A stretch of 40,566 nt of DNA from an uncultured bacterium (GTDB lineage Bacteria; Planctomycetota; Brocadiia; Brocadiales; Scalinduaceae). The stretch is taken from NCBI GenBank assembly GCA_913055705.1, contig CAJXKT010000006.1:1-40566 (forward strand), given 5' to 3'. Numbering within the stretch: position 1 is the stretch's first letter; every line of letters starts with the position of its first letter. The notes below the pieces were generated by a model, which was not told the origin of the DNA, ran no database searches, and was given only the letters and a program-made list of their open reading frames with translations. The position numbers and the translations under genes are program-made. Shown piece by piece: positions 18,701-23,231 of this stretch.

Positions 18701-19981
18701 CTATTTCCTGACGCCCAGCATTTCAACGAAACCTTCGGTTCTTGTGGCGATCTGCCCTGACATATAGTTGGTGTCGTCAACGCAATCTCCATCTAGATTT
18801 AAGAGTGGGTATCCTTCCTTCGCCAGCTCTGCTTTTATGGTAGGTATTGCGGCGTTGTTTCTCCTGCATCCCCAGGTGGAATAAGCAATTATGCCGTCTA
18901 CATTGTAATCTTTAGCCAATGTTTTAATAACCTTCAGCCTGTTATCCAGAGGTCCGTTGTTGTGGTTGGAGATCAGCTTTCGTGCGAGGCTTTCGTATGG
19001 CTTATCAGGGTCTAGTTTGTCCCAGTAGACGTGATTAATTTCCTCAAAAACTATTTTGGTATTTCCGGCATTTTCAATCTTGTCAAAGACATCAGCCTTA
19101 AAATATGGCTTTAATTCCAGCCAGAGGAGCCTAATCTCTTTTTCATCTGCAGCTTCTCCATTTTTTCTTCTTGTAGCAATTATATCCTTGAGTTCATCTA
19201 CCAGTGCTGTGTAGAAATTTACTGCATATTCTGAACCGATTTGATAGTGACTTGGCACCATGAAGCCAAGGCCGTCACCTCCCGTTAGTGGGGACAAGGG
19301 ATCCTGTCTCACATGATTTAATTCAATCATTTTCTCCCTTGCCTGATTGGACAATTCGATGGCTTCTGCAAAAGCGTGTTTCTCCATCTTTTTCCCCGTA
19401 GCTTCTTCGATGCACTTTGTTAAGCTGATTAATTGATTTGTCAGATATTTTATAGAGTGGTCATTCATCTCATGAGGAACGTCTACTATCATACTCTGTT
19501 TTCCTGTTATAGATTCGCAAATCTTTATTGTCTTTATGTTACTGTCACATATCGTTGATGTCCCTGCGAGAAACAGGGGGCGCGGGTAGACACCCATATA
19601 AGCATTTCCTAAAGCTGTTCTATGGAATGAACAGACATCGGTTGGTATAGTACTCAGATCAGCTTCAGCAAGAGCATTAGAGCCTTGGCCAAATTTTGAA
19701 CAAAGGGCTGCAGCTATTTCTAACGAGAAGGGATAAAGTTTCATCGCAAAGATGATCTCTGATGGCACGAATAGCGTTGTCCATATTGAACCATGTTTGT
19801 ATGAATTAGAAAAAAGTTCAATCACGCCTTTCGATAGAATATGAAAAGCTTTGATATCTTCTTTTCCAATGCCTTTTCCGGTTACTTTTGTATATATATT
19901 CAGAAATCTAAATAGCTCTTTTGCTAACAGAGGGGTTAGTTTTCGAGCAAACTTCTTTTTTGCACTTTTAATGTTTACCAT
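18701..19981 (-). CDS. 2-hydroxyacyl-CoA dehydratase-type (HgdB/BcrB/DCCP-like) component
   Basis: FVPSEIIFAMKLYPFSLE, CSKFGQGSNA, CSFHRTALG, GTSTICDSN, YSTWGCRRNNAAIPTIKAELAKEGYPLLNLDGDCVDDTNY; adjacent to a matching activase. Confidence 0.85.
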   Translation of the reverse strand: MVNIKSAKKKFARKLTPLLAKELFRFLNIYTKVTGKGIGKEDIKAFHILSKGVIELFSNSYKHGSIWTTLFVPSEIIFAMKLYPFSLEIAAALCSKFGQGSNALAEADLSTIPTDVCSFHRTALGNAYMGVYPRPLFLAGTSTICDSNIKTIKICESITGKQSMIVDVPHEMNDHSIKYLTNQLISLTKCIEEATGKKMEKHAFAEAIELSNQAREKMIELNHVRQDPLSPLTGGDGLGFMVPSHYQIGSEYAVNFYTALVDELKDIIATRRKNGEAADEKEIRLLWLELKPYFKADVFDKIENAGNTKIVFEEINHVYWDKLDPDKPYESLARKLISNHNNGPLDNRLKVIKTLAKDYNVDGIIAYSTWGCRRNNAAIPTIKAELAKEGYPLLNLDGDCVDDTNYMSGQIATRTEGFVEMLGVRK

Positions 19982-20131
19982 AATTCTCTTTAGCTTATTT
20001 GGTTTAGGAAATCTCTATAACAATGCTTGGCAAGATTAATTTGATATTACCAGATATGTTTCCTGCAGATGGCTTAAATTGAGTGTTAGTGGCTATACCA
20101 AAGACTGGGGAGATTAATTGGTATCTCTAAA

Positions 20132-22039
20132 TCACGTAGTTAGCTGTTCTATGAATGCTTCAATCCTGGTCTTTATTTGACCCTCACTTTTAGAACTGTT
20201 ATCACAATTTATATGTAACAGGGGAATATGCTTTTTCTCAAACTCTTTCTTGACCAAAGGATAATCATATAATGTATGATCGCAGAATTTTAAGGAGTGA
20301 TAGATTGCTCCGTTTATTGCTCTTCTTTCGATAAGGGAGACTATGCTTTTAATTCTCCCGAAGACGTCGACCATCCTGGAGCAGGGAGATCTTTTTAAGT
20401 ATCTCTCAGATATAGACTTGTATGGGTTGTCTGTAATCTCAACTTTTTTGTCAAAATACCTGCTGCCGGTACATAAATCTTCTGATACCACCCTGGCACC
20501 AGCATCTTCAATCATTTTGATTATCTCTTCATTTTCCAGTATGCTTCCCCAAATAAAGAGTTTTGGTACCGGATCTTTTTCAGGAACATCGCTTATTTTC
20601 TTCATGAGAGAGGTGAGAGTTGATACATAATCCTGGAATTTTTCAGGTACTGCATTTATGCCCTTCCTCAATAAGGTGAAGGTTTCATAACCGGAATGCC
20701 CAACGTAACCGTTCCATTGCTTTTGTAAAAATTCCATAACGTTATCTCTCATTCCGTTGTACAAAGTGATACTTCTATTAATGTCTTCATTCTGTATCTT
20801 GAGTTTAAAGTGATTCTCTATTCCTTCTTTAAATGCTTGAATTTCATCGGCAAAATATTGTACGGATGCTTCGTCACTATTTTTTGGAATATCGAGGAAA
20901 TAATTAAATTTCTCTCCTTTATCTATTCTTACCCACGCATCATAGAGCCTTCTCATACCATCACAGGAATTAGTAAACACAATCCCTTCAAGGTGGTCCA
21001 GATTTCCCGCTAATTTTTCATCGGTAAGAGTTTTTATATATGAACATATATTACTGCAGAGAAGTGATTCACCACCTGCTCCATTTTCTTCATTTGAGCC
21101 CTTTATCCTGACGGGGTGATATCCAGCTGCCCTGATAATCTCGACTGGTGTATAAGTACAAAAATAGCCGATTTTCAGCATTTTATCATCATCGAGTTGA
21201 ACGTCGGCGATTGATGATGTCTTATTATCAGCAGTGGCCGTAACAGATTCTTTTTTCGTATCAGCATTTGCGTTCTCTAAGGCAATTATGGCTGCTCCTA
21301 AAGCACCAATTATTTGTGGTTCTTCAGGCATTTTTATAGTGCAGAGCAGCTTCTTTTCAAGTTCACGCACAACTCCTATATTCTTGGCAACGCCCCCGGT
21401 CATTACGACCGCTTCTTCCAGGCCAATCCTCTTCGCTTGTCCTGAGACCCTTTTGGCTATGGAAATATGTAATGCCTTGCAAATGTCTGGAGTCTTGTGA
21501 TCAGCGCCAATTAAGGACACCACCTCTGATTCTGCAAATACAGTGCACAAACTGCTGATAGAGACATTATCCTTCCCTTTAAGAGAGAGTTCCCCCATAT
21601 CATCAAGCTCAATCTCTAATGTCCTTGCCATCACCTCAAGGAACCTTCCTGTCCCTGCTGCGCACTTGTCGTTCATGGAAAAATCGACTACGCTGCCCTT
21701 GGCGTCCAGCTTTATGGCTTTGCTATCCTGCCCTCCAATGTCGATGACTGTTCTGGCATCAGGGAAGAAATAATTTGCACCTTTAGCGTGGCAGGTAATT
21801 TCCGTTACAACTTCATTGGCAAAAGGAACTTTGATTCTGCCATATCCAGTCGCAATTATATAATCTAAATCTTTTGCTTCTAGCTTTGTAACATCCAGGA
21901 TATGTTTGAATATTTTGTCGCATGCCTTTTTACTGCTGGCGCCTGTAGCGATTATCTCATAGGCCACTATTTCCTTTTTCTCATTTATTAATACTGCGTT
22001 TGTCGATAAAGACCCTATATCAATTCCGAGCGTCAACAT
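20132..22039 (-). CDS. 2-hydroxyacyl-CoA dehydratase activase (BadF/BcrA/HgdC ATPase) fused to a dehydratase D-component-like domain
   Basis: N-terminal LGIDIGSLSTNAVLI, ATGYGRIKVPFANEVVTEITCHAKGA, VIDIGGQDSKAIKLD, MNDKCAAGTGRFLEVMARTL, VVMTGGVAKNIGVV. C-terminal FCTYTPVEIIRAAGYHPVRI, FTNSCDGMRRLYDAW, HSLKFCDHTLYDYPLVKKEF. Confidence 0.9.
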   Translation of the reverse strand: MLTLGIDIGSLSTNAVLINEKKEIVAYEIIATGASSKKACDKIFKHILDVTKLEAKDLDYIIATGYGRIKVPFANEVVTEITCHAKGANYFFPDARTVIDIGGQDSKAIKLDAKGSVVDFSMNDKCAAGTGRFLEVMARTLEIELDDMGELSLKGKDNVSISSLCTVFAESEVVSLIGADHKTPDICKALHISIAKRVSGQAKRIGLEEAVVMTGGVAKNIGVVRELEKKLLCTIKMPEEPQIIGALGAAIIALENANADTKKESVTATADNKTSSIADVQLDDDKMLKIGYFCTYTPVEIIRAAGYHPVRIKGSNEENGAGGESLLCSNICSYIKTLTDEKLAGNLDHLEGIVFTNSCDGMRRLYDAWVRIDKGEKFNYFLDIPKNSDEASVQYFADEIQAFKEGIENHFKLKIQNEDINRSITLYNGMRDNVMEFLQKQWNGYVGHSGYETFTLLRKGINAVPEKFQDYVSTLTSLMKKISDVPEKDPVPKLFIWGSILENEEIIKMIEDAGARVVSEDLCTGSRYFDKKVEITDNPYKSISERYLKRSPCSRMVDVFGRIKSIVSLIERRAINGAIYHSLKFCDHTLYDYPLVKKEFEKKHIPLLHINCDNSSKSEGQIKTRIEAFIEQLTT

Positions 22040-22210: not shown

Positions 22211-22252
22211 AATAAAAAAAGGCTTATAAGGTATGCAACCTTATAAGCCTTT
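22211..22252 (-). terminator. Intrinsic terminator downstream of the glycyl-radical-like gene
   Basis: Minus strand AAAGGCTTATAAGG-TTGCATA-CCTTATAAGCCTTTTTTT: perfect stem followed by a T-run. Confidence 0.9.
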
Positions 22253-22331: not shown

Positions 22332-22775
22332 TTATAAAGAGTCAATCATACCTAAGCGATCATCCTGGAAAAGTGGGCTTTTCCCTGTAAGGCCGTAACT
22401 TCCTTTAGCACGGTCTCTTAGCTCTCCTACTTTTGACTTGTTCCAGTTGTTAACTCTGGAATAATAGCCAACTATCCTTGTGATGCCGTTCAAGACTATA
22501 GGTTTTCTATCGTTTTGAATTACATTTATAAATTCTTGAGCTTTGTCTGTATCTGTAACTTTTTGGACGATTTCATCGATTGACACTTCAACGTAAGCAC
22601 CTTCAATACCTTCGGTCTTACTGTAGTCTCTAATCACGAAAACCTCTTCGCTATTAGGAAGTGCTGTACCGATTATCTCGAGGTCTGAAGACAACTCTAC
22701 AGCCTCTACGAAGATTGTTAAGCTCTTTTCAACACTTTCTGCAATACTGGCGCTCTCCTTTAATGTTACTGTCAC
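22332..22775 (-). CDS. Stand-alone NrdD-type glycyl-radical-domain-like protein
   Basis: C-terminal GITRIVGYYSRVNNWNKSKVGELRDRAKGSYGL resembles the NrdD glycyl-radical segment (R-V-x-G-Y ... WN/FN-xx-K-xx-E-xx-R). The ORF is only 147 aa, with no CxxC zinc motif or catalytic barrel. Confidence 0.72.
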   Translation of the reverse strand: MTVTLKESASIAESVEKSLTIFVEAVELSSDLEIIGTALPNSEEVFVIRDYSKTEGIEGAYVEVSIDEIVQKVTDTDKAQEFINVIQNDRKPIVLNGITRIVGYYSRVNNWNKSKVGELRDRAKGSYGLTGKSPLFQDDRLGMIDSL

Positions 22776-22983
22776 TATATTCTCCTCTCTTTCGAAAAAA
22801 ATAAAATTATTTAACGTTTAAGCCACTTATTTAACTGATAACCAACCGAAAACTATTCTAGTGAGTATACCTCCTTTCCTGGAGTCTTAGAGCCGATCGA
22901 AATTTACAGTTAAAAAAGAAATGCATCTAGATGCGCAAATTCAAACTTGAGTGGTAATATACAGAATGTAAATAAAAAGTCAA

Positions 22984-23043
22984 GTACATTTTCTGCAAAA
23001 TGTACAAAATGTTGTATGTTAGGAAGTTTTATGTACAACATTT
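22984..23043. promoter_or_regulatory. Two adjacent perfect inverted repeats
   Basis: GTACATTTT-CTGC-AAAATGTAC (22984-23005), then AAATGTTGTA...TACAACATTT (23007-23043), in the intergenic region upstream of the glycyl-radical-like gene. Confidence 0.55.
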
Positions 23044-23231
23044 ATAGTCGCAAAGACATTTCATTCCATGAGTTACAGAAGAAAAGGGAATTGCTAATTT
23101 TAGAGGAATTTTTTTTAATTTTTACTCAGAAAATGTGATAAATAAGATAGTTGTTGTACATCTTGCAGCAGTTGCGGTATGTGTAAAACAGATTACACTT
23201 TGCGTAATATGCGGAATATAAAAGGGTTACG

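Follow-up and report, generated by a model that had tools for sequence, protein, structure and literature searches.

The window, by which we mean the whole stretch of 40,566 nucleotides analysed here, comes from an uncultured bacterium of the Scalinduaceae, lies in an assembly of 2.07 Mb and carries on its minus strand the gene of a small stand-alone glycyl-radical protein (SA). The following features were assigned at the locus.

22332-22775, minus strand: coding sequence of SA, 147 amino acids, GTG start
22782-22788, minus strand: Shine-Dalgarno sequence AGAGGAG, about 6 nt 5' of the GTG, assigned from sequence
22491-22775, minus strand: N-terminal domain of SA, residues 1-95, unfamiliar fold
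22455-22481, minus strand: glycyl-radical loop TRIVGYYSR, residues 99-107
22467-22469, minus strand: codon of Gly103, the candidate radical residue
22410-22448, minus strand: post-loop NWNKSKVGELRDR helix region, residues 110-122, conserved with NrdD tails
22214-22252, minus strand: terminator-like hairpin AAAGGCTTATAAGG..CCTTATAAGCCTTTTTTT with a T-run, 3' of SA, recognized by eye
23002-23048, minus strand: candidate pair of NrdR boxes 5' of SA, ACTATAAATGTTGTAC (23048-23033) and ATACAACATTTTGTAC (23017-23002), 31-bp spacing

The 147-residue open reading frame is real, and the sequence-only reading, which had described it as complete and provided with its own terminator, is confirmed by the GTG start, the Shine-Dalgarno sequence and the hairpin with its T-run. 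Downstream of SA, positions 18701-22039 of the minus strand encode two 2-hydroxyglutaryl-CoA dehydratase D-component-type proteins, the first of them fused to a BcrAD/BadFG ATPase domain. A comparison of the SA gene neighbourhood between families revealed no conservation. At two Brocadiaceae loci (L189 and L190, in G031 and G046) SA is located near genes of a universal stress protein and an AmmeMemoRadiSam radical SAM protein, the identity of the latter having been checked with a profile in L190 only.

The C-terminal part of SA resembles the very end of NrdD, the class III (anaerobic) ribonucleotide reductase (RNR). Residues 95-123 align with positions 533-560 of the 562 positions of the Pfam NRDD profile (PF13597; E = 2.3e-5, 23.7 bits), a score just short of the curated cut-off (26.2), since no more than 28 of the 562 positions are present, and the NCBIfam NrdD profile (TIGR02487) matches the same stretch with E = 5.6e-4. 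Judged by these scores, the match is well above chance, and the NrdD-type C-terminal glycyl-radical segment claimed earlier is borne out. The choice of Gly103 as candidate radical residue, which the same reading had made dependent on conservation among homologues, has held up as well: this residue aligns with the radical glycine of NrdD, and the glycine of the R-[IV]-x-G-Y motif is invariant in SA alignments of 14, 21 and 45 sequences. Across 21 diverse host homologues the invariant positions are T99-Y104 (TRIVGY), N110-N112, S114, K115, E118, L119, D121, R122 and Y127, and the loop TRIVGYYSR is 100% identical in 13 Scalinduaceae. The traits of a complete NrdD (ten-stranded barrel, catalytic cysteine, zinc CxxC/CxxC site) were sought in the 147 residues of SA and none was found, as had been predicted for the barrel and the zinc site; as far as its sequence tells, SA is a detached NrdD domain without the status of an NrdD enzyme. 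It does not match the Gly_radical family (PF01228) either, NRDD being the sole family matched, and its sequence pattern fits a protein that works like GrcA/YfiD without being its homologue by the PF01228 test, the activity in trans being inferred.

In a structural model of SA built from 45 sequences (pLDDT 82), the N-terminal domain has the order alpha-beta-beta-beta-alpha-alpha, with pLDDT of about 90 or above over most of its length, and is followed by a beta hairpin tipped by the glycine and then by a helix spanning residues 112-122; an earlier model from 14 sequences had the tail at low confidence. A PDB fold search with the N-terminal domain of both models gave no match at E<=0.001, so the description of these approximately 95 residues as unfamiliar stands, and a PDB sequence search with SA gave no credible match. 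Weak fold resemblances of this domain to dsRBD and chromodomain were disregarded. The N-terminal domain is probably the docking part of SA, which is an inference.

The sole other NRDD match in the genome of the window is a full NrdD of 798 residues, encoded between nrdR and the gene of an NrdG2-type activase. The tail of this NrdD reads CTYCDASNLYSIKKSASQSRINNWDRTKMQELVDRHKENSKVK versus the usual YGITRIVGYFSRVNNWNKSK: in the segment NLYSIKKSASQSRINNWDRTK, RIVGYF is replaced by KKSASQ and alanine takes the place of the radical glycine, no glycine is found anywhere in the tail, and the post-loop helix is retained. That the loop loss is due to a frameshift or to faulty assembly was ruled out because the frame continues into the conserved helix in all members of the Scalinduaceae. 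The questions left undecided by the sequence-only reading, i.e., whether NrdD keeps its own RVxGY tail and whether an NrdG activase exists, are thus answered for this genome: the tail is lost, and the activase is present and adjoins nrdD. Of class I and II RNRs this genome has only an NrdA-like fragment at a contig end (G000:C92, L192), which is in frame with menaquinone-pathway-like sequence (MqnA-like, by eye) and is probably an assembly chimera or a contaminant.

The same pattern was followed through 63 genomes of anammox bacteria from five families (f1-f5), of which f1 and f4 are inferred to be Scalinduaceae and Brocadiaceae from named relatives and shared sequences; most of the genomes surveyed in this work are MAGs. 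In the Scalinduaceae the motif is absent from all 14 readable NrdD tails and SA is present in 17 of 17 genomes. Both members of f2 have lost the NrdD loop (2/2) and both have SA, while in f3 all eight readable NrdD loops are degraded, two of them retaining the glycine in an x-D-G-Y context (RLDGYK, RTDGYQ), and SA is present in every genome except G026. The Brocadiaceae have intact NrdD tails in 32 of 33 cases and SA is also found in 30 of those 32 genomes; G053, which belongs to this family, combines an NrdD reading RIGDYF with SA. The single genome of f5 has lost the loop and SA was not found in it. Degraded NrdD loops without a detected SA occur in G026 (96% complete) and G062 (77%; loci L095 and L097). 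A tree of the NrdD body recovers f1-f4 each as monophyletic, with the order between them unresolved, and places G053 inside the intact f4; therefore, the loop must have been lost independently at least twice in anammox bacteria. All loop-less anammox NrdDs that are long enough to show them have kept the zinc CxxC..CxxC motif and ACCRL, which by homology contains the radical cysteine.

Selection acts on the two loops very differently. In the Scalinduaceae the NrdD body has a dN/dS of 0.048 and the NrdD loop 0.47 with a mean amino acid identity of 0.42, whereas the SA loop (n=13) has dN 0, dS 0.74 and identity 1.00; intact Brocadiaceae NrdD loops give 0.013. With only 9 codons the loop values are coarse, and by these estimates the constraint is gone from the NrdD loop and now rests on SA. 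The post-loop helix of the Scalinduaceae NrdD is constrained (dN/dS 0.09), and therefore it still does something, perhaps having been recruited into the docking site. In the loop-less Scalindua tails (L051-L060) the post-loop NNWDRTKMQEL is constrained although SA has its own copy of it.

Beyond anammox bacteria, a wider survey of 395 planctomycete genomes revealed SA homologues of about 105-120 residues in seven families (f39, f45, f50, f71, f87, f99 and f100). A loop-less NrdD occurs together with SA in 18 genomes with readable tails (f39, f45, f71, f87 and f99), and an intact tail without SA in 23 genomes whose tails were read directly; G366 has both. The association of loop loss with SA presence is significant by Fisher test (p ~1e-8, and 9e-6 within the NrdD clade concerned), with no correction for kinship. 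The loop is lost and SA was not found in G115 (73% complete, L367), G123 (L371) and G188 (L370), the last two reading RIADYF. These three dead NrdDs without detected SA and those of G026 and G062 are unexplained, and SA is perhaps divergent or missing there. The survey also brought up a second kind of split, in which the nrdD reading frame stops behind the zinc site; a separate short open reading frame with its own Shine-Dalgarno sequence encodes the RxxGY segment and is followed by nrdG. The three cases (L248, 911-1063, in G340:C81; L384, ~2000-2172, in G090; and L383, overlapping the nrdD end, in G287) are possibly independent gene fissions.

The upstream region of SA was scanned for pairs of NrdR boxes with what we take to be their consensus, ACACwATATATwGTGT, allowing up to 8 mismatches per pair and using shuffles for comparison. 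In 80 host SA upstream regions, which include near-duplicate loci and related genomes and hence are not independent, the spacing peaks at exactly 31 bp (33/80), and pairs at 30-34 bp are present in 42% versus 0.04% of shuffles. The pair score was reached by 2 of 106 control open reading frames (L188, L190), both apparently genes that lie divergently beside SA and have its upstream region in common with it. The pair in the window itself is weak (10 mismatches in 32), with pair and spacing conserved 5' of SA in relatives, and no pair was found by the same scan upstream of phage SA copies. NrdR-box pairs are known to follow a rule of 15-16 bp spacers, 15 bp being among the commonest (PMC12051234). 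The 31-bp distance between centres corresponds to a 15-bp spacer and agrees with this rule, and pairs spaced in this way are enriched 5' of host SA. NrdR is predicted to regulate SA at the separate locus of this gene.

SA is also carried by phages. A scan of IMG/VR with an SA profile yielded 61 contigs and 38 distinct readable stand-alone SA sequences, the nearest being 75% identical to the protein of the window. In five of five IMG/VR loci checked SA is flanked by portal, head or tail genes, and therefore the copies there are phage genes. The phage homologues (L306-L361) have varied N-terminal domains and are often located among head and tail genes, the type that they most resemble being that of Scalindua in some and that of Brocadiaceae or of further planctomycetes in others. 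The second SA copy of G033 probably belongs to a prophage, because it matches the SA of a phage contig (L358). No SA was found in INPHARED phages, and a search with one protein query did not find a close NrdD relative in phage contigs.

Sequence comparison alone establishes that the NrdD loop with its glycine has been lost, that the SA loop is constrained, and that the NrdD body, catalytic cysteine, zinc site, NrdG and NrdR are kept. The explanation that we hold to be very probable, in the absence of biochemistry or a structure of the complex, is that class III RNR here consists of two polypeptides, SA being the subunit that bears the glycyl radical and supplies it in trans. In the mechanism we infer, NrdG, whose gene adjoins nrdD, would generate the radical at Gly103 of SA, which would dock on NrdD through its N-terminal domain and, by analogy with GrcA and PflB, displace the dead native tail. 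The RIVGYY loop of SA would be placed in the NrdD barrel beside the catalytic cysteine of ACCRL, and a thiyl radical would then form on NrdD by radical transfer in trans; the decayed loop of NrdD itself cannot carry a radical. The closest demonstrated precedent is GrcA, which acts on cleaved PFL (PMC8683613) and without which full-length PflB-G734A makes no formate in vivo (PMC12338860). In P. copri NrdD, whose radical domain is mobile, the tyrosine that follows Gly711 is in contact with the active-site network (PMC11226230); the tyrosine after the radical glycine is kept in SA and mostly missing from dead NrdD loops.

Were SA a strict analogue of GrcA, it would only replace the oxygen-cleaved radical domain of a self-sufficient NrdD. 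The Brocadiaceae, in which intact NrdD tails and SA coexist, and G366 can be accommodated in this way, but the NrdDs of the Scalinduaceae, f2, G053 and the f39-type families have no radical glycine to damage, and for Scalindua the sequence of NrdD suffices to refute a spare-part function as the only one. Overall, we regard it as very unlikely. The sequence-only reading, which had proposed a GrcA-like spare part for a damaged or C-terminally truncated NrdD, was supported by each of the sequence checks it had suggested, and a spare part fits the Brocadiaceae, where both copies are intact; this reading understates the case in the genome of the window because NrdD is deficient there and SA looks obligate. 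Another possibility, to which we give scarcely any credence, is that NrdD is dead or regulatory, dNTPs come from another RNR and SA is an inhibitor or a relic. Several SA genomes, including several Scalinduaceae, do carry a class II RNR (NrdJ); however, the strong constraint on the NrdD body, the intact catalytic and zinc cysteines, the invariant SA loop and the carriage of SA by phages all speak against it, as do six genomes (both of f2, G008, G009, G010 and G014; 93-95% complete) in which no class I or II RNR was detected with the PF02867 or RTPR profiles. That the partner of SA is some other glycyl radical enzyme or a radical-SAM system, as the AmmeMemoRadiSam-type gene near it in some Brocadiaceae might suggest, is highly improbable given that no such neighbour is seen next to SA in the window, that no PF01228 enzyme and therefore no other glycyl radical enzyme partner was found in the genome of the window, and that SA has an NrdD-type tail, co-occurs with NrdD loop loss and is preceded by NrdR-like boxes. 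For SA as a radical subunit of NrdD, it is strongly indicated that class III activity cannot do without the protein in the Scalinduaceae and the other loop-loss lineages, and that it is a backup in the Brocadiaceae.

In known glycyl radical enzymes the radical glycine is on the catalytic chain and GrcA is a rescue device; to our knowledge, every NrdD described so far has it there too. Like GrcA/YfiD of E. coli and Y06I of phage T4, SA is small, consists of an N-terminal part and a glycyl-radical loop, and has phage-borne versions. Those proteins act in trans on a large glycyl radical enzyme, PFL, whereas the enzyme of SA is NrdD, SA has no PF01228 match, and, unlike in the GrcA system, the large enzyme has lost its own glycine naturally and permanently. 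The ATP-cone, catalytic cysteine, zinc site, NrdG2 and R-[IV]-V-G-Y motif are shared with the class III NrdD/NrdG systems of T4, P. copri and T. maritima, but in P. copri NrdD Gly711 is on the same chain (PMC11226230), while here the radical glycine is on another gene. The distribution of one RNR over two genes is also found in split class II NrdJa/NrdJb and split phage nrdD/nrdA (PMC9669993, PMC3653736). These are fissions, introns or inteins, in contrast to the SA loop, which is joined to a new domain and encoded at a different locus, the loss from NrdD having come later. In the open literature we found only spare parts for PFL and other kinds of split RNR; subscription papers and most preprints were outside this search, and priority is uncertain.

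Both in marine anammox bacteria and in other planctomycetes, the radical glycine of anaerobic RNR seems to have moved from NrdD to a separate small protein. An obligate two-gene glycyl radical enzyme with an exchangeable small radical subunit, which is predicted to be under NrdR control, is carried by phages and is accompanied by independently repeated loop loss in planctomycetes, is in our opinion likely. Apparently the radical would now have a subunit to itself, in the manner of class I RNR (alpha/beta), and the enzyme concerned is essential, in bacteria that are central to marine nitrogen loss. We infer that, with the radical on a separate subunit, an oxygen-fragile enzyme could be repaired by exchange of a small protein, an additional control point could arise, and phages may gain a cheap lever on the dNTP supply of the host. 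The natural glycine-less NrdDs make radical transfer in trans directly testable.
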